Part shown: in pieces, positions 7,752 to 60,238 of the stretch
Layout of the letters: every line of letters begins with the position of its first letter
How positions within the stretch are numbered: position 1 is the stretch's first letter
DNA from: a virus
Direction: 5' to 3' (one strand)
Length of the DNA stretch: 64,000 nucleotides
Virus record (IMG/VR): IMGVR_UViG_3300027908_000020
Coordinates: 1 to 64,000 of that record
Position numbers and translations under genes: made by a program
The notes under the pieces: model-generated
Told to the model about the DNA's origin: nothing
Seen by the model: only the letters and a program-made list of their open reading frames with translations
Database searches by the model: none

Positions 7752-8336
7752 GTGAATACAATAATTACTGAGAAAACTGACGATGGCGAAGTTTCTTATG
7801 ATGTTTTTAGTAAACTTGTAGATCACAGAATATTATTTCTTTATGAATACATAGATGATAAAACTGCTGCCGATGTAGTTGCAACACTGTTGTACTTGGA
7901 TCGAGACAAAGAGCAAATTTCTCTCTATATTAATTCTGAGGGCGGTGATCCAAGAAGCGTTTTTATGATCTATGATATAATGAAAATGCTTAAATCTCCA
8001 ATTGCGACCTATTGTATTGGTTCGGCAATGTATGAATCATTATTAATTCTTGCAGCCGGTACTAAAGGGTTAAGACATGCTACAAAGAGTTCGACAATTT
8101 GTTTAAGCCAACTCGTTGTTGGAGATCATAGATACTCTAATATGTCCGATGCCGAAATCCTTTTACAACAAGCAAAAAGAAGCAATCTATCTTTTATAGA
8201 TGCATTGAGTTCTAACACGGGGAAGTCTACTAAAAAGTTAATGAAGGATTCTGAAAGACAGCTTTTCTTATCCGCAGCTGAAGCTAAAAAATATGGGTTT
8301 ATAGACAATATTATAGGGCCTAGCAAAGATGACTAA
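7752..8336 (+). CDS. ClpP-like protein with all three catalytic residues replaced
   Basis: A 194-residue ClpP fold: YINSEGGDPRSVFMIYD (residues 59-75) and the AAGTKG loop are typical. Aligned by spacing with E. coli ClpP, the nucleophile Ser is Tyr (Y94 in GSAMYES), the His is Ser (S119 in CLSQL) and the Asp is Gln (Q170 in ERQLFLSA), so this subunit should be proteolytically dead. It starts with GTG behind AGGAG. The next gene overlaps it by eight bases and encodes a copy with the triad intact, so the pair resembles the ClpP/ClpR active-inactive mixed rings of cyanobacteria and plastids. It may form a mixed barrel or act as a decoy for host ClpP. Confidence 0.85.
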   Translation: MNTIITEKTDDGEVSYDVFSKLVDHRILFLYEYIDDKTAADVVATLLYLDRDKEQISLYINSEGGDPRSVFMIYDIMKMLKSPIATYCIGSAMYESLLILAAGTKGLRHATKSSTICLSQLVVGDHRYSNMSDAEILLQQAKRSNLSFIDALSSNTGKSTKKLMKDSERQLFLSAAEAKKYGFIDNIIGPSKDD

Positions 8337-8889
8337 TAATAATCAGATACTCCCAAAGTATACAGAATGCTATGCTGCTCTGGCGAAAGAGCGCATGATT
8401 TTTATATCGGAAGATATTACCAAGGATACAGCATCATCACTATCTGGAATGTTATTATATTATGATTCAGAGAATGATGTAGATGATATTAGTATATATA
8501 TTAATACTAATGGTGGGGATACTCACGCTCTATCAAATATCTATGATGTTATGCAAATGATTAAGTCCCCAATAAAGACTATTTGCATAGGTAAAGCATA
8601 TTCTGCAGGTGCTGTAGTTTTAGCGGCAGGTACAAAAGGGAAGAGGTTTATCACAAAAAATGCTTCGGTTATGACCCATGGTATTCAATTTGCTTTCCCT
8701 AGTTCTCCTGACCAGAGAGATTCTGAAATTTATTTTAAATATTTAAAGGATCATAATGATATGATCCTTACAATTTTAGCCAAACATACGGGTCAAACTA
8801 TCGAAAAAATTCTTGAAGATTGTAAAAAAGATAATTATTTTGATGCCAAACAAGCATTAGAATATGGAATTGTAGACGAAATTATATAG
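8329..8889 (+). CDS. clpP: ClpP-like serine protease subunit, triad intact
   Basis: A 186-residue ClpP. The nucleophile is S92 in GKAYSAGA, the His is H117 in VMTHG (25 residues later, as in E. coli ClpP), and the Asp is D168 in KKDNYF. YINTNGGD is the oxyanion-hole loop region. ClpP forms 14-mer chambers that degrade unfolded substrates delivered by ClpX/ClpA-type AAA proteins; no Clp ATPase is visible in the window, so a host unfoldase or one elsewhere would be needed. It starts in the end of the inactive paralogue, giving coupled and probably equimolar expression. Confidence 0.9.
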   Translation: MTNNNQILPKYTECYAALAKERMIFISEDITKDTASSLSGMLLYYDSENDVDDISIYINTNGGDTHALSNIYDVMQMIKSPIKTICIGKAYSAGAVVLAAGTKGKRFITKNASVMTHGIQFAFPSSPDQRDSEIYFKYLKDHNDMILTILAKHTGQTIEKILEDCKKDNYFDAKQALEYGIVDEII

Positions 8890-29878: not shown

Positions 29879-30901
29879 ATGGCGATAATAAATATTACAA
29901 TTACTCCTTCCACTACAGAGGTTCAGCCAGGTATTCCGGCTACTATAATGCTATCTACTAACATACCTGCTACAATTTTTTATACTTTAGATGGTTCTTC
30001 TCCAACCACGTTCTCGCCCGTATATGTGGCACCGATATTAATGCCCTCGGGCCCCCTCTCTATAATTCTATCGGTTAATGCCTCTGACGGTACAAATAAT
30101 TCTGCTACGATAGTTCAGACATATACAACGAATCCAGACCAATTGTCAACAGATGCTGGCGCTCGGCTTCCTCATTCTGCGACAACAAATGTAAATAATG
30201 CATCCACAAATAATAGTTTGTTTCCATTCGGAACCAACAGTCCAAATCCAAATTTTCAGTATCTAAATCCTGCAGATGCTGGTTACACAGTAAATAACGA
30301 AGCTTTACCATCGACTCCAGCCGGATTTGATGGTGAGGGTAATCCAGCAGTATTCACTAACCAACCACTTAGCTACTACGAGTTTCAAGAAGTATATTCC
30401 ACATTGAATTGGCTCAATGAAGAAGAGCCTGGTGTTGGGAACTTACCTGGACAAACTCAGGTGGTTGCAAGCTCATTTCCAGTACAGTACAGCCCAGAAC
30501 GTTCTAGCACCTCTGACAAAATCTTTAATCCAAGAGCCCTTGTGATTTATCAGGATTCAACTACAGAAGATCCTACCAATCCAGTTGTTATCAATAGACC
30601 ATACATGTCATTGGAAAATCCAGAAACTGTACGTGATGGTAATTTACTTTACAATTCCACATTAGACAGTCCCCCAACAATGGGAGGTTTTGTGAATAGA
30701 TGGTATAATGCAAGAACTAATATGATGACGTATTACTATTATGATAACACTGTTGGTCGATGGATTATATCGACAACCCCATATTCACCAACTCAAAATG
30801 TTGGGGCGCTTCAAAATGTGGTGTTCGGGCGGAACTCTAAAGAGGGCGGAGGATCAAAATATTTCAAATGGGTTCCGTTTCTATACCGCACACTTATTTA
30901 A
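29879..30901 (+). CDS. Possible virion protein with chitobiase-C-like domain
   Basis: A 340-residue protein rich in Thr, Ser, Asn and Pro. Residues about 5-85 have the beta-sandwich pattern of the chitobiase/beta-hexosaminidase C-terminal (immunoglobulin-like) domain: ITITPSTTEVQPG ... ATIFYTLDGSSPT ... SPVYVAPI. The remaining 250 residues are Asn/Pro/Tyr rich and unassigned. Such domains decorate phage capsids and tail fibres and bind carbohydrate. It sits alone among replication genes, and about 110 bases without genes follow. Confidence 0.55.
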   Translation: MAIINITITPSTTEVQPGIPATIMLSTNIPATIFYTLDGSSPTTFSPVYVAPILMPSGPLSIILSVNASDGTNNSATIVQTYTTNPDQLSTDAGARLPHSATTNVNNASTNNSLFPFGTNSPNPNFQYLNPADAGYTVNNEALPSTPAGFDGEGNPAVFTNQPLSYYEFQEVYSTLNWLNEEEPGVGNLPGQTQVVASSFPVQYSPERSSTSDKIFNPRALVIYQDSTTEDPTNPVVINRPYMSLENPETVRDGNLLYNSTLDSPPTMGGFVNRWYNARTNMMTYYYYDNTVGRWIISTTPYSPTQNVGALQNVVFGRNSKEGGGSKYFKWVPFLYRTLI

Positions 30902-31013: not shown

Positions 31014-31787
31014 ATGCCCGAATTATCGTTACGATTATCTGTTAGTAAATGTAAAACATATTCTGACTGCCAAAAAAAATATAAATTTGCATATATTGAT
31101 AAACTACCTCAAAAGGAATTTATTTTTCATACTTTTGGAAAATTCTTACATAAAGTGTTAGAAGATTTTCACCTTGAATATATAAATGGTTCAACTGAAA
31201 AATTTAGCACCGTAATGTCTAAGGTATTTAAATCTGCCAAATCGGAATTTAAATTATCTAGTGAAATGCAAAAAGAAGCTTATGAAATAATAAATGCTTA
31301 TTTAAAAAAAATATCTATTGAGGATGGCGAATCTAAAATTATTGCAGTCGAAAAAAAATTCGATTTTGCCATAACTGATAGAGTGATATTAAATGGTATG
31401 ATTGATAGAATTCAATTAGATGGTGATGGTATTTTGCATGTGGCAGATTACAAAACTACTAAGAATAAAAAATATCTTAAAAATGATTTTTTACAATTAC
31501 TTACGTACGCATACGTAATTTGGTCAGAAAATCAAGATATCGAAAAAGTTCGGGGCTCGTATGTTCTATTGAGACATAATTTTGAGTACATAACAAAAGA
31601 ATTTGTTAAGGACGAAATATTAGAAATAAAAAATAAATATGAAGATTATGCAAAACAGATCGAGGAAGAACAATTATGGAGGCCGAACCCGACACGGTTA
31701 TGTGAATATTGCTCATACTTAGATATTTGTAAAGAAGGAATTGCCGCTACTAGACCAAAGGTATCATATGGCGAATCATCCTGGTAG
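31014..31787 (+). CDS. PD-(D/E)XK nuclease of the RecB/Cas4 type
   Basis: A 257-residue nuclease with the PD-(D/E)XK core: GMIDRIQL (about 128-135) supplies the Asp and HVADYKTTK (about 144-152) the D-x-K. The N-terminus SVSKCKTYSDCQKKYKF with a Cys, and C-terminal CEYCSYLDIC, give the four-Cys layout seen in Cas4 and AddB type iron-sulfur nucleases. Members trim single-stranded ends or act in recombination. Its end overlaps the start of the HNH gene by 20 bases. Iron-sulfur binding is inferred from the Cys pattern. Confidence 0.85.
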   Translation: MPELSLRLSVSKCKTYSDCQKKYKFAYIDKLPQKEFIFHTFGKFLHKVLEDFHLEYINGSTEKFSTVMSKVFKSAKSEFKLSSEMQKEAYEIINAYLKKISIEDGESKIIAVEKKFDFAITDRVILNGMIDRIQLDGDGILHVADYKTTKNKKYLKNDFLQLLTYAYVIWSENQDIEKVRGSYVLLRHNFEYITKEFVKDEILEIKNKYEDYAKQIEEEQLWRPNPTRLCEYCSYLDICKEGIAATRPKVSYGESSW

Positions 31788-32493
31788 TACAAAAATTTGT
31801 ATTAATTGCTCAAAGATTAAAGAATTTTTAGAGTACCCAAAAGTTAAGGGTAAAAACGAAATCATTTATTTTAAAAATAAATGCAAACAGTGTTATAGTG
31901 AATATAATTCAAAATATTACATCGATAATTTAGAATATTTTGATTCACACAATAGAGAATATTGGGAAAATAATAGAGAAGAATTAGTTATAAGAAATAA
32001 ACTTTATAAATTGAACAACAAAGATAAAGTTGATGAAACTAGAAAAAAATATCGGGACAATAATAAAATTCATCTTAATGAGAAACGCGCTGAACGAGCT
32101 AAGTTTCTAAGAAAAACCGATCCAAGTTTTAAACTAAAAGAGATAGTTTCATCGACAATTAGAAGTGCTTTGCGTAAAGCTGGTTCTACTAAAAATGGCA
32201 ATTCTATTTTAGATGTGTTGCCATATACTATTGAGCAACTTAAGATTTATTTAGAATCCCAATTCGAGTCTTGGATGTCCTGGGAAAATTGGGGAGTATA
32301 TGATGCTACAACGTGGAAAGATGACGACACGACTACTTGGACTTGGCAGATAGATCACATAATTCCACAGGCCAACTTGCCATATGAGTCAATGTCTGAT
32401 GAAAATTTTCAAAAATGTTGGGCATTAATCAATTTGAGACCATATTCAGCAAAATCTAATGTATTAGATGGAGTTAAGAAATCAAGGAAGTAA
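31768..32493 (+). CDS. HNH homing-type endonuclease
   Basis: A 241-residue HNH nuclease. The N-terminus has a zinc segment CINC ... CKQC, the middle is a helical, charged region, and the C-terminus carries IDHIIPQANLPYES and CWALINLRPYSAKSN, the HNH core. ATG 31768 is chosen over a GTG start. It is AT-rich and Lys/Asn-rich compared with neighbours. A clear paralogue is at 34316, with trigger factor between them. Free-standing HNH genes of this sort are typical mobile elements in phages. The previous nuclease overlaps its start by 20 bases. Confidence 0.85.
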   Translation: MANHPGSTKICINCSKIKEFLEYPKVKGKNEIIYFKNKCKQCYSEYNSKYYIDNLEYFDSHNREYWENNREELVIRNKLYKLNNKDKVDETRKKYRDNNKIHLNEKRAERAKFLRKTDPSFKLKEIVSSTIRSALRKAGSTKNGNSILDVLPYTIEQLKIYLESQFESWMSWENWGVYDATTWKDDDTTTWTWQIDHIIPQANLPYESMSDENFQKCWALINLRPYSAKSNVLDGVKKSRK

Positions 32494-32494
32494 T

Positions 32495-33736
32495 ATGAAT
32501 ATTACGATGGAAGAAATAGAATATTGTAAGGTTGACGTTCACTATGAGTCAGATATTGAAACTATTATCTCGAAAAGAAGTGAAGTTGTAGCGAAATTTA
32601 AGGATGTTGCTGTACCAGGATTTAGGCTCGGACATGCTTCTCCCGAAGTTCTAAAAATCTATTTTAGAAAAGAGATAGACGAAGCTCTTCAGAAAGAGCT
32701 TGCTAATGATGCAGTTCAAAATACAATTTTCGAAAAAGGTATAAAGCCATTTGGGTACCCACAATTTAAATCCATTCATCTGGAAGGTAACAAATTCAAT
32801 TGTGATTTTACATTACATGTACAGCCAGCGTTTGAACTTCAACAGTATAAGGATTTTGAAATTCCTAAGCCAGCTGAAAAGATGAATGCGGTTGAGTTAG
32901 CGCAAAAAATTCTTCAAGATCTAAGAGTTAGATATGGCGAGACAACTCCATATGGAGAAAATGATTTTGTCCAAATTGGGGATAACGTGGTTATTAATTA
33001 TAATGGCACCGTTGATGAGCAGCCGGTTGACAGGCTTACGGCTTCTGGTGAACTTGTACAAGTTGGTAAAACGCCAATACCAGGATTCGATGATAACCTT
33101 CTCGGTATGAAGACCGGCGAAGAACGAGTTTTCTCATTAGTTATGCCTGCTGAGGTTACTGATAGTTTGGCCGGGAAAAATGTTACATTCAATGTAAAAC
33201 TTATCTTAGGATCAAAGGTTCAACCAGCACCATTGGATGATAGTTTAGCAAAGAAGGTTGGTTTTGAAAGTTTTGAAATCATGATGAACCATGCTAGCAG
33301 TACAGCTTCAAACAGGGTTCAGGAAACCACACGTAACCAGATTATGGATCAAGTATCTAAAAGATTGATAACTAATCATGAATTTAAAATTCCACATTGG
33401 ATTTCTTCGGCAGAAGCTCAAATGAGCGCCAAGAATAATGGAGAGAATTGGGAAGTTCTTTCTGATGTCCAAAAAGAAAGATATCTAGAGCACGCCGATA
33501 ATAGCATCAAACTATCTTTAGTCTTAGCAAAAATACGTGATGTGGAGCCAGAGGCTCAGCTAAGTGATGAAGAAGTATTTAAGATAGCAAAAGAGAATAT
33601 ATCTAAATTCTCGGATAAGCCTGAGGAAGTATTTGAAGGCATGTTTAAAAATGGGCATCTTCCAATTCTTTTTAACAGAATCAGAGACGAGAACACATTA
33701 GGCTTCATACAGAAGCATTGTACAATAATTGAATAA
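32495..33736 (+). CDS. tig: Trigger factor-like chaperone
   Basis: A 413-residue protein matching bacterial trigger factor (432 in E. coli) over its full layout. The N-terminal ribosome-binding domain has the signature loop VPGFRLGHASPEV (residues 40-52), corresponding to GFRKGKVP that contacts uL23 at the exit tunnel; here it is GFRLGH. The FKBP-type prolyl isomerase domain follows (about 150-235; VVINYNGTVDEQ, PGFDDNLLGMKTGEE). The C-terminal helical substrate cradle follows. It would fold or guard nascent chains at the ribosome. AAGGAAG precedes the ATG. To my knowledge trigger factor is rarely reported in phages. Confidence 0.92.
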   Translation: MNITMEEIEYCKVDVHYESDIETIISKRSEVVAKFKDVAVPGFRLGHASPEVLKIYFRKEIDEALQKELANDAVQNTIFEKGIKPFGYPQFKSIHLEGNKFNCDFTLHVQPAFELQQYKDFEIPKPAEKMNAVELAQKILQDLRVRYGETTPYGENDFVQIGDNVVINYNGTVDEQPVDRLTASGELVQVGKTPIPGFDDNLLGMKTGEERVFSLVMPAEVTDSLAGKNVTFNVKLILGSKVQPAPLDDSLAKKVGFESFEIMMNHASSTASNRVQETTRNQIMDQVSKRLITNHEFKIPHWISSAEAQMSAKNNGENWEVLSDVQKERYLEHADNSIKLSLVLAKIRDVEPEAQLSDEEVFKIAKENISKFSDKPEEVFEGMFKNGHLPILFNRIRDENTLGFIQKHCTIIE

Positions 33737-33744
33737 GAGGCATT

Positions 33745-34026
33745 ATGAGTAAGACTATTTTTCCAGATAAGTATCGTAAAAAAATTGAACCAGAGTTTCT
33801 AGATAATGTTAATGCTATGGATACAGAAGAGATTAAGAAAAGACTTCTGGAGCAAGAATCTGCTGTTTATGACGCAGAAAACGAAAAAGAAGAGGATAAG
33901 GAATTAACCGAGGCTCGTGAAAAGGTTAAGGAATTTTCAAAACCTTACAGAGAGAAGAAGGCACAAGCAACTGCAAAAATTAAATATTGCATGTTTGTGC
34001 TGGAAAATCGGGGAGTTAATCTTTGA
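33745..34026 (+). CDS. Small hypothetical charged protein
   Basis: A 93-residue, strongly charged Glu/Lys helical protein without recognised family. It follows the trigger factor gene by 8 bases with a GAGGCATT leader. Its stop overlaps the next gene's TTG start. Confidence 0.65.
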   Translation: MSKTIFPDKYRKKIEPEFLDNVNAMDTEEIKKRLLEQESAVYDAENEKEEDKELTEAREKVKEFSKPYREKKAQATAKIKYCMFVLENRGVNL

Positions 34027-34313
34027 CGGAAATCAAAAAAATTGTAACAAAGTCATGTTCAGCCTGCTCCAAGGGCCAAATATTATTACAATTTGATTTT
34101 CCGCTAGATATAGCACATAAACAATTTTTTGCGGATTCTAAGTTTATAGAATCGAAAGCCTATGCAGACCGGGGTATATTGTATGTGGAAGATGCTAATC
34201 TTGTCGCCATGGGGCCTTTTGGTTCTAATCGATTAAATATAAGATGTAAAACGAATTCTTGTGATGACAGCGTAGCAATTGTGGAAGGGATACTTCGGAA
34301 CATAAAAGGATAA
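34023..34313 (+). CDS. Small hypothetical protein with a Cys pair
   Basis: A 96-residue protein with CSAC near residue 12 and CKTNSCDD near residue 74, possibly one split zinc site. TTG is the only start that fits the frame; GGGAG lies 8 bases upstream. It ends just before the second HNH gene. No family recognised. Confidence 0.6.
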   Translation: MTEIKKIVTKSCSACSKGQILLQFDFPLDIAHKQFFADSKFIESKAYADRGILYVEDANLVAMGPFGSNRLNIRCKTNSCDDSVAIVEGILRNIKG

Positions 34314-34315
34314 TT

Positions 34316-34987
34316 GTGAAAAAATGTACTTCTTGTCAAATAGAGAAGGAATTTTCTGAATTTCGATTTAGAAAGGATCGAAATTCTTATATTGCAATTT
34401 GTCGGGTATGTGAAGCTTTTAAAAAAGCAGAGTATGCTAAAACCCATAAGCCACAACAAGCTATCTCAAGACATCTTTATTATTTAAATAATAAAGATAA
34501 AGAAAGAGAAAATAATAAAAAGTGGTTATTAGATAATAAATCTGAGAGGGCAAAGTATCATACTGAATATGAAAAGAAAAGAAAAGAGATAGACCCGTCG
34601 TTTAGAATTAGAGTTTCTGTATCAAAATTAATAAATAATTATTTTATATTAAATGGTCTAACGAAAGGTAATCTGTCTTTTTTAAAATTTGTTGGTTGGA
34701 ATTTAGAAGAATTGAAACAACATTTAGAGTCTCTTTTTGAGCCATGGATGAGTTGGAATAATTGGGGCAAATATAATCCAAAAGAATGGGATGATAACAA
34801 TACGTCTACATGGACATGGAACATAGATCATATAGTCCCACATTCAACATTTAAATATTCCTCAATGGAGGATGATGATTTTAAGAAATGTTGGGCTTTA
34901 AGTAATTTAAGACCTTTAAGTTCAAAACAAAATTTGCTTGATGGCTCTAAACGAACGAGGCACCAAAATGTCAATAAAGGACGTTAG
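34316..34987 (+). CDS. HNH homing-type endonuclease (paralogue of 31768)
   Basis: A 223-residue HNH nuclease with the same order as the gene at 31768: N-terminal zinc pairs CTSC and CRVC, a charged helical middle, then WNIDHIVPHSTFKYSS, CWALSNLRPLSSKQN. The shared strings (EPWMSWNNWGKY versus ESWMSWENWGVY, and CWAL.NLRP) show a common origin. GTG start with AAAAGGA at good spacing. The two copies bracket trigger factor and two small genes, which suggests spread of a mobile nuclease or a past duplication. Overlaps the M41 gene by 20 bases. Confidence 0.85.
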   Translation: MKKCTSCQIEKEFSEFRFRKDRNSYIAICRVCEAFKKAEYAKTHKPQQAISRHLYYLNNKDKERENNKKWLLDNKSERAKYHTEYEKKRKEIDPSFRIRVSVSKLINNYFILNGLTKGNLSFLKFVGWNLEELKQHLESLFEPWMSWNNWGKYNPKEWDDNNTSTWTWNIDHIVPHSTFKYSSMEDDDFKKCWALSNLRPLSSKQNLLDGSKRTRHQNVNKGR

Positions 34988-35701: not shown

Positions 35702-38700
35702 ATGACTGATTTTGTATCGTTGCATAACCATACCCATTTTTCAATTCTAAATTCATTAGTGTCTCCGAAAGAACTTTTTGTAAGAGCAAAAGAACTTGGA
35801 CAAAATGCTGTGGCAGTTACAGACTATGGCACGCTTTCGGGGGCGTGGGACTCTCTAAAAGTTTCCAAAGAAACAGGTGTAAAATTGATTATTGGTTGCG
35901 AGTTATATTTCGTAAACAATACTTCCCAGAAGGATGACAAACTTAGATACATTGTACTGATAGCTAAAAACCATCAAGGATACAGAAATCTACTTTCCAT
36001 TAATAAATATGGTTTTGAAAATTCCGCCATCGTAATGAAAAAAGTGCTTCCAATAATTGATTGGCCTGCGCTTGAAAAATATGCAGAAGGCCTAATCTGT
36101 TTAACTGGTTGTGGTAATGGGATAGTTGGGCAGCTCATCAATGATAAGAATTTTGATGAAGCTGAAAGCACACTTAAGCGGTTGTCCAAAATTTTTGGCT
36201 CCAACTTGGGGGTTGAAGTGCAAACACATAATTTAGCCAGAGGAGCTACTTATTATAGCGGTAGCGTTAATCAAGTATTTACAAATGCTCAACTTATTAG
36301 GTTAGCTAAGAAACTAGATTTACGTCTTGTACCAACTTCGAATTCACATTATTTAAAAAAAGATGAGTCTGATGTGCATGATGTTTTACTGGCCATCGCG
36401 GCTATGCAGCCGGTTTATTCTAATGCGCGAATTAAGTACAACGTATCTGATCTTTACTTAAAAAGTGGAGATGAGGTAAAAACTTTTTTTTCCAGAAATC
36501 ATGGTGAAGATTTTGCCAAAGAATTATGTGCCAATTCTATTTATTTTTCAGAACTTTGTGAGAAGCCAGATTGGATCGATCCAAAATTTTCTAATCCAAC
36601 TGGAAAAGAACTCCCCGTTTTCCCAGTAGAGAGGGAAGATGATTATTCTTTATTCAAGGACTGGATGTCCATTCATGAAGATTCGCAAAGGATAGATCAG
36701 GATAAGGCGTACCTAAGGTTTAGATGCGAGCAAGAGTTCAAAACCAAGGTAGCGCAAGATAGAGTTGCTGAGTATAAGGCACGTCTAGATGAAGAGCTAG
36801 ATGTTATCGAGTATCACGGTTTCTCTAGCTATATGTTAATCGTTGCTGATTATATTACTTGGGCCCGCCGTAATGGAATACGGGTTGGTTTGGGAAGAGG
36901 ATCTGTTGGTGGTTCACTTATTGCATTCTTGCTTGGCATCCACGGAGCTGATCCAATAAAGTATAAACTAATTTTTGCCAGATTCCACAACAAAGAGAAG
37001 TCATCTTTCCCTGATATAGATACAGATTTTTCTCCAGCTGGAAGAGATAAGGTACAGGAATACATTAGGCAGAAGTATGGTTCTGAACACGTTGCACACG
37101 TATCTAATATAAATACAATAACGCCTAAGGTGTTCGCGCGTGACGTTGCTAGGGCTTGTGAGTTTGGTGGCAGCAGACAGGCTGCAGTTGATATTGGCAA
37201 TAGTCTGGCTGATAGTATACCAAAGAAGATTGATGAAAAAGAAGTCAAGACTTTTGAAGAAGCTATCGAAAAAGCGCCACTATTTGGTGAATATGCTTCT
37301 AAGAGTTATCCTGAATTAAAGAAATACGCTGCTATTTGTGGGAAATATAGGGCGTGGGCAACCCACGCTGCCGGTCTAGTTATCTCACAAAGACCACTAC
37401 CAGGGTTTGTTCCTCTACGAAAAGATAAGGATGGAGCTATTGCGATTGAGTTTGATAAGGAGCGAGCTGAAGAACTTGGTCTCGTAAAGATGGACACTCT
37501 TGGTCTTGAGACTTTAGATATAATTGATGAAACATATCGTCTGGTAAAAGAAGCAGGAAAACCATTACCACCTGATCCCCCAAATTTTGAAGAATATGAT
37601 AAGGAGACTTATGATCTTATTTCAAAAGGGGATACATTCTGTGTATTCCAGTTGGGGACAAGTGCAGGCACGATTGATCTGTGCAGAAAAATAAGACCAA
37701 AATCAATCGAAGATATAAGCCATATCAATTCACTCGCCCGCCCATCCGCGCGCGATATTAGAGAAGGGTTTATAGCAGCTAAGGAAGGTCGTACAAAAGT
37801 CAAACTTTTGCATCCTTCTTTGAAGAGGGCGTTTGGTGATACATTTGGATTTGGTCTGTACGAAGAATCTCTAATGTATCTAGCGCAGGATGTCGCTGGC
37901 TGGAGCCTTCATGAAGCAGATCGTCTTCGTAAGCTAACAAAAGAAAAAGGTAAGAATCCAAAAAAGGTATTGCAGTGGAGAAGTGACTTTATTTCCGATG
38001 CTAAAAAAAATAATGACATCTCAGAAAATATTGCTATGAAAATATGGGATGAAGTTGTTGACAAGTTCCAGGGTTATGGTTTTAACATGAGTCACTCAAT
38101 TATGTATTCAATGATAAGTTATTATACAGCTTATTTGAAAGCTCATTATCCTGTAGAATTTTTATTGGCTAACTTGATGTCTGAACTAAGATCTAATGCA
38201 AAGGTATCTAAAGATAATATAGATAAGATAAAGCAGGAGCTTAGGAATCGTGGAATAAAGATTAATTCTCCTGATATCAATCAATCAGATATTGATTACA
38301 AAGTTCTGTCCGATGGTTCACTTCTTACTGGTCTGCAAGCACTAGCCTTCGTTGGTGATGATGCTATGAAAGACCTTGTAAGTAAAAGACCATTCAAGAG
38401 TTTTGATGATTTCATGCTGCGTGTTGATTCGCAAAAGGTAAAGACTAATCATGTACAAGCGTTAGCGGCAAGCGGATTTCTTGATAACTTTGGAATATCA
38501 AGGAAGGTAATGTATCTATATTGTTCTGATTATAAAAAGAAACTGCAGGTATGGCTTAAAAAGCATAATCCAGAATTTGATAAATTTGAATATCCCTGGC
38601 CAGTTGATAAAGAGTGGTCGCCATCAGAGCTGTATGCTTTGGAAAAATCTTACCTTGATGAAACATTCATATGTGGTAAAAAAGAAGCATATATGAATTT

Positions 38701-39220
38701 TTTCAGGCAGCGTTCATTTCTAGTAAAGGATATTCTTCTTATGAAGGATAGAGACCCAATTCCATCTGTGCGCGCTGAAATCAAAAGCGTGTTCGAGTTT
38801 AAGGTAAAGAAGGAAACTTCTAGGTACCTTGGTGAGAACATGATTAAGGCAACAATTGAAGATGAGGGAGGAGATCAGATAACTTTGACGGTGTTTCCGA
38901 ATAAGTGGAAAGATGTCAAAGCAAGGATGAGAGACCTCTACGGCAATAAATATAAGTTCGAGCCAGGATTAGCGGTTCACTTTTCTGGAACTCTTAATGT
39001 GTACGAGGACGAAATTGGTATCATATTAGAAAGCTTTTATGAAGCTGCTCCTCCTCCTCCCATGCCAAAAGACATGAAGCATAAAAAGATTTCTTTAAAG
39101 AAATCAAATAATGATTCTATCAAAAATATAGATTTGAATAGTACTGATAAAGTGATTGAAAATATAGAAGATGAACTATTTGATGAAGGTCTGATTGATC
39201 TAGATCAAGAAGATGACTGA
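35702..39220 (+). CDS. dnaE: DNA polymerase III alpha subunit (DnaE-type)
   Basis: A 1172-residue C-family replicative polymerase. The PHP domain starts the protein (HNHTHFS, AVTDYGTLSG). The palm carries GLGRGSVGGSL near 400 and the catalytic Asp pair in FPDIDTDF (D438 and D440), with D598 in VKMDTLGL. The FNMSHSIMYSMISY segment and an HhH-like region follow, and an OB-fold region lies in the last 200 residues. No proofreading exonuclease domain is seen. It replicates the phage genome, perhaps with host clamp; the C-terminus ends in an acidic tail. Typical bacterial DnaE is about 1160, so it is full length. Confidence 0.95.
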   Translation: MTDFVSLHNHTHFSILNSLVSPKELFVRAKELGQNAVAVTDYGTLSGAWDSLKVSKETGVKLIIGCELYFVNNTSQKDDKLRYIVLIAKNHQGYRNLLSINKYGFENSAIVMKKVLPIIDWPALEKYAEGLICLTGCGNGIVGQLINDKNFDEAESTLKRLSKIFGSNLGVEVQTHNLARGATYYSGSVNQVFTNAQLIRLAKKLDLRLVPTSNSHYLKKDESDVHDVLLAIAAMQPVYSNARIKYNVSDLYLKSGDEVKTFFSRNHGEDFAKELCANSIYFSELCEKPDWIDPKFSNPTGKELPVFPVEREDDYSLFKDWMSIHEDSQRIDQDKAYLRFRCEQEFKTKVAQDRVAEYKARLDEELDVIEYHGFSSYMLIVADYITWARRNGIRVGLGRGSVGGSLIAFLLGIHGADPIKYKLIFARFHNKEKSSFPDIDTDFSPAGRDKVQEYIRQKYGSEHVAHVSNINTITPKVFARDVARACEFGGSRQAAVDIGNSLADSIPKKIDEKEVKTFEEAIEKAPLFGEYASKSYPELKKYAAICGKYRAWATHAAGLVISQRPLPGFVPLRKDKDGAIAIEFDKERAEELGLVKMDTLGLETLDIIDETYRLVKEAGKPLPPDPPNFEEYDKETYDLISKGDTFCVFQLGTSAGTIDLCRKIRPKSIEDISHINSLARPSARDIREGFIAAKEGRTKVKLLHPSLKRAFGDTFGFGLYEESLMYLAQDVAGWSLHEADRLRKLTKEKGKNPKKVLQWRSDFISDAKKNNDISENIAMKIWDEVVDKFQGYGFNMSHSIMYSMISYYTAYLKAHYPVEFLLANLMSELRSNAKVSKDNIDKIKQELRNRGIKINSPDINQSDIDYKVLSDGSLLTGLQALAFVGDDAMKDLVSKRPFKSFDDFMLRVDSQKVKTNHVQALAASGFLDNFGISRKVMYLYCSDYKKKLQVWLKKHNPEFDKFEYPWPVDKEWSPSELYALEKSYLDETFICGKKEAYMNFFRQRSFLVKDILLMKDRDPIPSVRAEIKSVFEFKVKKETSRYLGENMIKATIEDEGGDQITLTVFPNKWKDVKARMRDLYGNKYKFEPGLAVHFSGTLNVYEDEIGIILESFYEAAPPPPMPKDMKHKKISLKKSNNDSIKNIDLNSTDKVIENIEDELFDEGLIDLDQEDD

Positions 39221-57331: not shown

Positions 57332-60238
57332 ATGCCAGCTCAAGCCACAGATTTTATATTCGAAAAAATTAAAAATGCCCTGCTAAATATAGATCCTGTG
57401 GCGTTTTGCGAGAAGTACTTAAAACTAGATGGCAAACCGTTTCGATTGCATGGAAACGGGTACAAACCTTTTGCCGATATTTATCGTTATGTCGGTATCA
57501 AAGCGTTAGAAAAAGATTCAATACCAGTAATCATCGTTAAAGGACGTCAAGTAGGCGCAACAACAATGGCAGCGGCCCTTGAAATGTATTTCATGGGCTG
57601 TGGTCTTTTTGGGTCAACAGGTAAGCCACCAATAAGAATTGTTCATGCTTTCCCACAACTTGATTTGGCCTTTGCGTACACTAAGGTAAAGCTTAATGGA
57701 ATGATTAGTGATTCGGTTGTTCCAGAAGAACAGGTTCTTGCAAAAGGTATCAAGCCAAGAGCCTACATGCAATCGATGATTGATCCAGGATCACCAACAA
57801 ACGATTCTTTACAGTTCAAACAGTTTGTTGGAGGGAATCATATCTGGATTGAGTCAACCGGAATTGATGGTAACAGACTCAGAGGTAAACAGTTATCACT
57901 AGATACTGACTTACCAACACCACTAGGATTTATTAAACTACGTGATCTTAAAAAAGGAGATCGATTATTTGATGAACAAGGAAATATTTGTAATGTAATT
58001 AAATTACATCCGATAAATCTATCACCAGAATCTTATCGAATAACTTTCGATGATGGTACAAGCATAGATGCATGTGCAGATCATTTGTGGCTTACGTACA
58101 CAAGACGAGATCGTGCAGCAGCATGCAGATTTTTTAATCAAAAAAGCGATTATAAACCAAGACCAACAGTTAAAAAAACCAAAGAAATATTTGAAACTAT
58201 TAAAGTAAACAACGAAAGTAATCATTCTATACCTAATACTTTACCTTTGAATTATTCAGAAAAAGAGTTACCAATTGATCCATATTTATTTGGATTATGG
58301 CTTGGGGATGGTGATGGAAATGGTAGAATAGAAACGGCAGACCCAGAAATTCTTAATGATTATAATAATCATATTATACCATCATCAACTGGTAAATCAA
58401 AATCTGCCTCATACAGAGTAGCTGGACTCACAACGAAGTTAAGGAAGCTTGGATTATTATTAAATAATCATAAAAGAAAAAATAATATATATAAAAAATA
58501 TATACCAAATGATTACATGCTTGCTTCGTATGCGCAAAGACTTGCCCTTGTTCAAGGGCTTATGGATACAGATGGATTTTGTGATAAGAATGGCAGAGTA
58601 GAGTTTTGTTCCACAATATCAGAATTGGCGCATGATGTATTTGAATTACTATTAAGTTTAGGTATCAAAGCTCATATGTCAGAATCAGAAAGTTGGCTCT
58701 ATGACAATAAATGTAAAAATAGATTTAGAATTAATTTCGTTTCTAGGCTACCAGTATTTAGGCTAAAAAGAAAATTACATAATTTGAAAACAGATAATAA
58801 AGCTATTTTCATGAGTACACATAGGTATATTGTAGATGCGAAGAAGATAGACTCTGTGCCAATGAGATGCATAACTGTTGATAGTCCTAATCAATTATTT
58901 TTGATAACAAAAAAATTTATACCTACCCATAATACCGCTGATGTCCTTTTTTTCGATGAAGTTCAAGATATGCCAGCCTCTGCATTAAGCAATTCAACTA
59001 AGATTCTTGCCAAGGCCCAATATGGTTCGCAAGGTAATGGTATACAGGTTTATTTCGGAACACCAAAGCAGCGTGGCTCAGAATTCTGGACAATGTGGAA
59101 TCAATCATCTCAACAATATTATTATTTGGGATGTGATAAATGCAAGAAGCATTTTCCATTGTATACCCCAGGCTCCAATGATTGGGAAAACATTTGGCTC
59201 TACGGGTACATTGTTAGATGTACACACTGTGGATTCGAACAAGATAAACGTGATGCAGCTGAAAGAGGTAAATGGATTGCAACTAGAGATGCCTCCGACG
59301 CTAAGATAATTGGATTTCATATCAATCAGCTTTACATGCCTGAGTTTACAAGAGAGAAGATAATCTCCGAAAAGCCAGGTATTAGTGCCATTAATACAGA
59401 AAGAGCATATCAGAATGAAGTTCTTGGAGAGTTCTATCATGGTGAAGCAACAATAATAACTCCAGAACAAATCAGAGAATTATGTGGTGATCCTGAAAGA
59501 AAGTTTAGAGCTAGCATATCTACAGCAGAAGATTTGATGGTGTTCCTTGGAATAGATATCGGAGCAAGAAATGATTTAGAGCAATTGGTAGATTCTGAAA
59601 AAATTAAACCACAGGGCCAAAGCTATAGCACAGCTGTTGTAATTGCGATGACAGGGCCCAAACGAATGTCAATTGAATTTGCAACAAAATTCAAAAGAAA
59701 TGATCTTGCAAGTAAAAAGGGCTTAATTGATCAGGTTATGAGACAATATAATTGTAATTTAGCTGTGTGCGATATCGGATTCTCAAATGATTTAAGTGAA
59801 ATTTTACAAACAGAATATGGAGATAAGTTCTTATCATCACAATCATTACCACGTGTAAATGAACACATAAAATTTAATGATCAAACATTTCCAAAAATAA
59901 TTGCATTTGAAAAAGATTATTGGGTAGCAGATTTGTATGAGCAAATGAAAAAAGGAAACATAAGATTTCCGCTGGGTGATTATGAAAAAATTGCATGGCT
60001 TATACAGCATTGTACAAGTATGGAAATTAAACCAAGTATATCTAGAACTGGTGAAATAACTCCACATTATGTTAAAGGAAGTTCACCTAATGATGGATTT
60101 ATGGCTTTGCTTAATGCTTACATAGCATATAAATTTTATGTATCAGATGGATTTCAAATTAAACATCCTTTATCAATGACCGATAGCCAGGGAAGAAAAC
60201 CACCTGTTTTAAGTGGGTATCTACCGCGAATGAAGTAA
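57332..60238 (+). CDS. terL: Terminase large subunit, interrupted by an intein
   Basis: A 968-residue precursor: a 348-residue intein sits in a 620-residue terminase. VKGRQVGATT (residues 69-78) is the Walker A region, with Ala in place of the usual Lys of GK(T/S). TADVLFFDEVQDMP right after the intein is Walker B. YFGTPKQRG follows, then a zinc segment (CDKC ... CTHCGF) with DAAERGKWIATR, typical of phage TerL. The nuclease domain has FLGIDIGARND, AVCDIGF and SPNDGF. Terminase cuts and pumps DNA into heads. Extein joints are ...GNRLRGK / TADV..., which restores the LRGxTADVxFFDE pattern. Confidence 0.95.
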   Translation: MPAQATDFIFEKIKNALLNIDPVAFCEKYLKLDGKPFRLHGNGYKPFADIYRYVGIKALEKDSIPVIIVKGRQVGATTMAAALEMYFMGCGLFGSTGKPPIRIVHAFPQLDLAFAYTKVKLNGMISDSVVPEEQVLAKGIKPRAYMQSMIDPGSPTNDSLQFKQFVGGNHIWIESTGIDGNRLRGKQLSLDTDLPTPLGFIKLRDLKKGDRLFDEQGNICNVIKLHPINLSPESYRITFDDGTSIDACADHLWLTYTRRDRAAACRFFNQKSDYKPRPTVKKTKEIFETIKVNNESNHSIPNTLPLNYSEKELPIDPYLFGLWLGDGDGNGRIETADPEILNDYNNHIIPSSTGKSKSASYRVAGLTTKLRKLGLLLNNHKRKNNIYKKYIPNDYMLASYAQRLALVQGLMDTDGFCDKNGRVEFCSTISELAHDVFELLLSLGIKAHMSESESWLYDNKCKNRFRINFVSRLPVFRLKRKLHNLKTDNKAIFMSTHRYIVDAKKIDSVPMRCITVDSPNQLFLITKKFIPTHNTADVLFFDEVQDMPASALSNSTKILAKAQYGSQGNGIQVYFGTPKQRGSEFWTMWNQSSQQYYYLGCDKCKKHFPLYTPGSNDWENIWLYGYIVRCTHCGFEQDKRDAAERGKWIATRDASDAKIIGFHINQLYMPEFTREKIISEKPGISAINTERAYQNEVLGEFYHGEATIITPEQIRELCGDPERKFRASISTAEDLMVFLGIDIGARNDLEQLVDSEKIKPQGQSYSTAVVIAMTGPKRMSIEFATKFKRNDLASKKGLIDQVMRQYNCNLAVCDIGFSNDLSEILQTEYGDKFLSSQSLPRVNEHIKFNDQTFPKIIAFEKDYWVADLYEQMKKGNIRFPLGDYEKIAWLIQHCTSMEIKPSISRTGEITPHYVKGSSPNDGFMALLNAYIAYKFYVSDGFQIKHPLSMTDSQGRKPPVLSGYLPRMK
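57890..58933 (+). mobile_element. Intein with LAGLIDADG endonuclease inside terL
   Basis: A 348-residue intein. Its start is QLSLDT (Q at codon 57890), aligned with the C-L-x-x-D-T start of class 1 inteins, so the first residue is Gln rather than Cys or Ser. Block B is DACADHLWL with a His. LFGLWLGDGDGNG and LVQGLMDTDGFCD are two LAGLIDADG helices. The end is CITVDSPNQLFLI ... FIPTHN, then Thr as +1 residue. It interrupts terL directly before Walker B, a highly conserved site as expected for homing. Boundaries follow from extein homology. Confidence 0.9.

Follow-up and report, generated by a model that had tools for sequence, protein, structure and literature searches.

Trigger factor (TF) is a chaperone stationed where chains leave the ribosome. 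In E. coli, an added or excess amount of ribosome-binding TF is costly to the cell, and the ribosome-binding motif of the protein was published as GFRxGxxP (PMC11559001). The pocket of E. coli TF for proline-aromatic substrates was described as comprising F168, F177, I195, F198, F217, Y221, and F233 (PMC6166725). TF has also been linked to phages: the T4 ModB protein ADP-ribosylates host TF at Arg45, inside the docking motif (PMC3014915), while the plating of phage chi drops by more than 95% without the host tig gene (PMC10399903), indicating that TF can matter to phages. Besides, phages encode the ribosomal proteins bS21 and bL12 (PMC6375957), and huge phages encode translation factors (PMC7162821). 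TF is mentioned in the main text of neither of these two reports, and no report of a phage-encoded TF was found in the main texts of the open-access literature searched. Hence, ribosomal proteins and translation factors are known from phages, whereas TF is unreported in this literature.

The window analyzed here is a stretch of 64,000 nucleotides, being part of a 150,580-bp IMG/VR virus record that was searched for chosen families outside the window. It contains a gene for a TF of 413 amino acids, located in a replication and recombination module with the following features:

31014 to 31787, plus strand: PD-(D/E)XK nuclease, the conserved upstream neighbor (PDDEXK_1, 1.9e-33)
about 31741 to 32493 (31768 to 32493 also given), plus strand: HNH-like homing-type ORF between nuclease and TF, without Pfam match, labeled HNH from reading the sequence
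32484 to 32490, plus strand: Shine-Dalgarno-like AAGGAAG, 4 nt 5' of the ATG at 32495, read from the sequence
32495 to 33736, plus strand: phage TF, 413 amino acids (TIGR00115, Pfam, AlphaFold2, and PDB matches)
32495 to 32839, plus strand: N-terminal ribosome-binding domain, about residues 1-115 (Trigger_N; 1oms fold match)
32618 to 32635, plus strand: docking loop GFRLGH, residues 42-47 (GFRKGK, 43-48, in E. coli), from sequence and alignment
32957 to 33223, plus strand: FKBP-type domain with an eroded pocket (FKBP_C; pocket residues by alignment)
33224 to 33733, plus strand: C-terminal substrate-cradle domain (Trigger_C)
33745 to 34026, plus strand: small conserved ORF of 93 amino acids, having a counterpart in 37 of the 44 related contigs, order kept
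34023 to 34313, plus strand: small conserved ORF of 96 amino acids, having a counterpart in 41 of the 44 related contigs, order kept
35702 to 39220, plus strand: DnaE-type DNA polymerase III alpha, the conserved downstream neighbor (Pfam DNA_pol3_alpha, 4e-70)

The reading frame of the TF gene is open and starts at ATG 32495, the other candidate start, ATG 32468, falling within the upstream HNH-like ORF. The sequence-only reading had claimed a complete TF layout for this protein, and profile searches bear this out. Indeed, the TIGR00115 tig profile is matched over its full length with 199.2 bits (cut-off 180.2), and the three Pfam domains Trigger_N (73 bits, residues 1-139), FKBP_C (30.6 bits, residues 158-236), and Trigger_C (37.1 bits, residues 271-405) follow one another in order, each above its cut-off. 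In the same line, E. coli TF provides the top PDB sequence matches (phmmer, 3e-21 for 1w26), so that, as judged from these comparisons, a match to TF by chance is excluded. Among the phage relatives tested, the TIGR00115 scores range from 152.7 to 252.3, four of them (L010, L019, L015, and L007) standing below the cut-off. An AlphaFold2 model of the window protein, built with 12 phage sequences, reached a pLDDT of 88.6 and a pTM of 0.64, the latter value leaving the domain arrangement uncertain. With this model, the best Foldseek match was E. coli TF (1w26), followed by ribosome-bound TF (2vrh) at a TM-score of 0.67 by query length, and the ribosome-binding domain of E. coli TF on its own (1oms) was matched at about 0.80 by target length. 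Finally, the PHROG family phrog_26774, whose function is unannotated, matches residues 12-381, which means that TF-like proteins already lie without a name in a public phage library; the same model also matches in 12 of the 14 cellular genomes used as controls and is thus not clade-specific.

The surroundings of the gene are those of a phage. The window also encodes a terminase, a portal, and the DnaE-type polymerase, and the gene order around TF is conserved: going upstream from TF, the first conserved gene is the PD-(D/E)XK nuclease in all 43 contigs having that flank, and on the downstream side DnaE follows at a distance of 1.8-5.1 kb in all 44 related contigs. The tig-clpP-clpX neighborhood of bacteria is absent, the nuclease and DnaE being the neighbors of TF in all contigs. 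As to the HNH-like ORF in the gap between nuclease and TF, a relative is present in L012 and none was seen at that place in the other 12 relatives compared; a second HNH-like ORF, on the other side of TF (34316-34987), is absent at that place in most relatives. A protein with a chitobiase/Fn3-associated domain (29879-30901) is likewise part of the replication module, as it is in 43 of 44 relatives; a domain of this kind is unusual in such a setting. Several genes carry intein-like inserts. DnaE is split by one into two ORFs in L007 (12182-17086) and L010 (12584-16636), and the terminase large subunit of the window (57332-60238) contains another, with LAGLIDADG_3 at residues 402-452; its stretch from about 110 to 559 matches parts of other phage proteins, some of which are not annotated as terminases. 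In records G017, G028, and G033, the portal matches form two separate segments of a single ORF (about 1000 amino acids), suggesting that an insert, for example an intein, interrupts the gene.

Two scans address the distribution of this gene. The first one was anchored on DnaE and thus picked contigs without reference to TF, thereby providing the unbiased measure of its regularity. It yielded 11 contigs whose DnaE is 39-62% identical, plus many distant ones. All nine of the close-DnaE contigs with sequence upstream of DnaE carry TF just 5' of it; the remaining two, L018 and L020, start within about 200 bases of DnaE and are uninformative in this respect. Of the contigs with a distant DnaE, L021 was the sole one whose fetched flanks contained a TF-like match, and this match is divergent. 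The second scan, anchored on TF, gave 47 loci and, since it selects for TF, is silent on regularity. In total, the search of other huge phages, suggested by the sequence-only reading, led to 45 non-identical phage TFs, that of the window included, on IMG/VR contigs of up to 480,838 bp. Besides, relatives of the window portal are found in 20 of 21 large records at 54-74% identity, among them a 406-kb record at 74%. Given this portal and the conserved gene order, the window is placed by sequence comparison in a group of huge phages that have TF in their replication module. The initial impression of few phage examples therefore holds for the literature searched, where there are none, but not for this group, where the gene is regular. 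The protein of L021 (2462-3682) is a more distant TF-like phage protein, with 178.9 bits for TIGR00115, just below the cut-off, a long branch in the tree, and a docking motif reading IEKGQ where the others read FRKGK; one scan for further proteins of this type returned L021 itself as the sole match.

Phylogenetic analysis against bacterial Tig, another check proposed at the outset, groups the phage TFs into one clade on a long stem, apart from every bacterial TF sampled, with a support of 100/100 in a tree of 54 rows (12 phage) and of 100 in a tree of 71 rows (45 phage). The TF nearest to that of the window is 53% identical to it and comes from a phage, while the best bacterial TF among 80 loci kept from a genome scan reaches at most 31%. 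Verrucomicrobiota adjoin the phage clade in one tree (96/93); as this link lies on a long stem and is not repeated in the second tree, which separates the phage proteins from all bacteria, no host is claimed. The phage TFs do not group inside one bacterial lineage, as a recent capture would, and the family looks like an old phage lineage. In addition, the close pair L012/L043 shows a dN of 0.096 for a dS of 0.75, indicating purifying selection on TF in this pair.

The docking loop of the window protein does read GFRLGH at residues 42-47, as first reported, and lies exposed in the AlphaFold2 model between helices 21-34 and 50-56. Numbered as in E. coli, residues G43 and R45 occur in 45 of 45 phage TFs, F44 in 42 (replaced by N, C, or Y in three relatives), and G47 and K48 in 41 each. 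With G43 and R45 invariant and F44 nearly so, the loop is, by this alignment, constrained across the phage family. Compared to the published motif, the window reads GFRLGHAS, having GFRxG and lacking the last P, P50 being found in 9 of the 45 phage TFs. The departure from GFRKGK had been considered functionally telling, a view that the relatives do not sustain. Position 46 is variable in bacteria, with Pro in 65 and Lys in 15 of 80 sampled TFs, although these statistics lean canonical because the bacterial scan partly used the pattern GFR[PKL]GK. K48 to H is the one change in the loop that falls outside the bacterial pattern, and His at this position is unique to the window among the 45 phage TFs: its closest relatives read GFRKNK (L181 and L182) and GFRKGR, and most relatives GFR[P/K]GKA. 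The loop change was therefore rejected as a key family-wide feature, and H48 kept as a one-lineage trait. As for docking on uL23, which was part of the same proposal, it is the likely mode of action of the phage TF since the family as a whole retains the residues used for docking.

A feature missed by the earlier note, and new here, is the erosion of the prolyl-isomerase pocket. Of the six pocket aromatics F168, F177, F198, F217, Y221, and F233, a median of three is retained in the phage TFs compared to six in the sampled bacteria, as read off an alignment in which phage and bacterial proteins share about 21-25% identity. In the window protein, F177 is changed to V, F217 to M, and Y221 to V, Y stands at position 168, and F198 and F233 are kept, giving three out of six. 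Across the family, Y221 is replaced or gapped in 45 of 45 proteins, Phe at 177 appears in none of the counts listed, Phe at 217 occurs in seven, position 168 is mostly Tyr, and F198 and F233 are kept in 44 and 36 of 45, respectively. Conservation is also distributed differently between the domains: identity among phage TFs is highest in the N-terminal domain (mean of 47%, against 45% for FKBP and 39% for the C-terminal domain), whereas among sampled bacterial TFs it is highest in the FKBP domain (45%, against 35% and 34% for the N- and C-terminal domains). The C-terminal cradle remains full length, with a mean of 166 aligned residues compared to 173 in bacteria. This pattern is what would be expected if ribosome docking were kept and isomerase activity relaxed, and the FKBP-type domain is probably kept folded as a weak or dead prolyl isomerase.

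Taken together, these sequence-based data make it reasonably probable that the gene encodes a phage-lineage TF working as a ribosome-docked holdase with impaired isomerase activity, in competition with the host TF or in its place. According to this model, the protein would use its conserved G-F-R loop to dock on uL23, next to the exit tunnel of the host ribosome, its N- and C-terminal domains would shield nascent chains, and it would compete with host TF or replace it during infection, while the FKBP-type domain would be retained as a folded part whose isomerase activity is weak or dead. Counting against this reading, the window protein has H at K48 and lacks P50, and three relatives lose F44. 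Moreover, in view of the cost of added ribosome-binding TF in E. coli, benign substitution is not a given, and since an excess is harmful there, the phage-encoded TF could likewise shift the balance of the cell. Replacement of host TF, already suggested by the sequence-only reading, is maintained as a proposal; the further suggestion that it steers the folding of virion proteins fits less well with a gene located in the replication and recombination module. Its clients may be replication proteins, virion proteins, or both, and, with the gene in a fixed place beside DnaE, they may be mainly replication proteins rather than virion proteins.

The same location fits an alternative that is judged unlikely, though not negligible, namely that the protein acts mainly off the ribosome, in the cytosol, where it would hold or help to assemble large phage complexes such as the replication machinery encoded nearby (DnaE, SbcCD, RecA-like), ribosome contact being vestigial. 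TF travels with the replication module and not with capsid genes, the order nuclease-TF-DnaE being found in 43 of 43 contigs, the loop is loosened in the window's own subclade (GFRLGH in the window, GFRKNK in its two relatives), and the distant L021 protein has lost the motif. However, invariance of G43 and R45 together with a best-conserved N-terminal domain would be unexpected if docking were vestigial.

Ribosome docking is shared by the model favored above and by a second, rather improbable alternative, in which extra TF would take over the cell by overload, occupying uL23 and throttling host protein synthesis, export targeting, or division, with folding being secondary. It finds some support in E. 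coli, where excess TF inhibits growth and protein synthesis via its N-terminal domain and docking motif (PMC11559001), and in the modification of host TF at Arg45 by T4 (PMC3014915). Nevertheless, a full-length cradle exceeds the needs of a blocker, and phages themselves need translation.

A third possibility, a protease adaptor that steers degradation with phage tandem ClpP-type proteins and host ClpX, is very improbable. ClpP homologues, mostly as tandem pairs, are encoded by the window and by 15 of the 20 further TF-phage records, but the remaining five have no ClpP match, no ClpX above the cut-off was detected in any of the 21 records, and the ClpP-type genes of the window are about 24 kb away from TF, with further matches to families of head maturation proteases. 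In these 21 records, neither GroEL nor ClpX was found on the phage. The tandem genes themselves, at 7752-8336 and 8329-8889, are classed by PHROGs as head maturation proteases; by alignment, the catalytic Ser, His, and Asp are all retained in the second, and the first has Tyr and Ser instead of Ser and His, as a dead ClpR-like partner. It is conceivable, if doubtful, that a docking TF without isomerase activity, carried by this huge-phage lineage for a long time, replaces host TF during infection and forms, with this active and dead pair, a viral quality control for new proteins.

Finally, bacterial contamination or mis-assembly, which had been named as a possible refutation and is a real concern for "phage" records with tig (in seven of ten TF loci fetched from a collection of annotated phages, TF has bacterial clpP and/or clpX as a neighbor), can practically be dismissed here, given the terminase and portal within the window, the phage gene order conserved around 45 phage TFs on many independent contigs, the portal common to nearly all large records, and the distance from every bacterial TF kept. 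The annotated records were also discarded as further examples of phage TFs, seven of the ten being bacterial stretches and the other three short.

How does the phage TF compare with the systems described so far? It shares with bacterial Tig (TIGR00115; 1w26, 2vrh) the three-domain layout, predicted fold, length, and G-F-R loop, but differs from it by an identity of about 21-25% per domain, by the loss of Pro50 in most members, by its eroded pocket, and by a gene adjoining the nuclease and DnaE instead of clpP-clpX. Similarly to bS21, bL12, and the translation factors, it is the phage version of a ribosome-associated host component, for which substitution on the ribosomes of the host is proposed; TF, however, acts on the emerging chain and not in initiation or elongation. 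Phage control of host translation would thereby be extended to the moment when the chain leaves the tunnel, and the sequence data suggest that these uncultured huge phages take control of protein folding at its first step, on the ribosomes of the host. Besides, docking residues kept and an isomerase pocket lost across a huge-phage group make a natural test of the role of TF on the ribosome besides proline isomerization. T4 ModB and the phage TF are both aimed at the TF-ribosome docking motif, T4 modifying the host TF while the huge phage supplies its own. In the same line, chloroplast Tig2 (PMC11731035) is likewise a TF derivative with reduced domain function linked to ribosomes; Tig2 is truncated and lacks whole domains, whereas the phage TF keeps all three.
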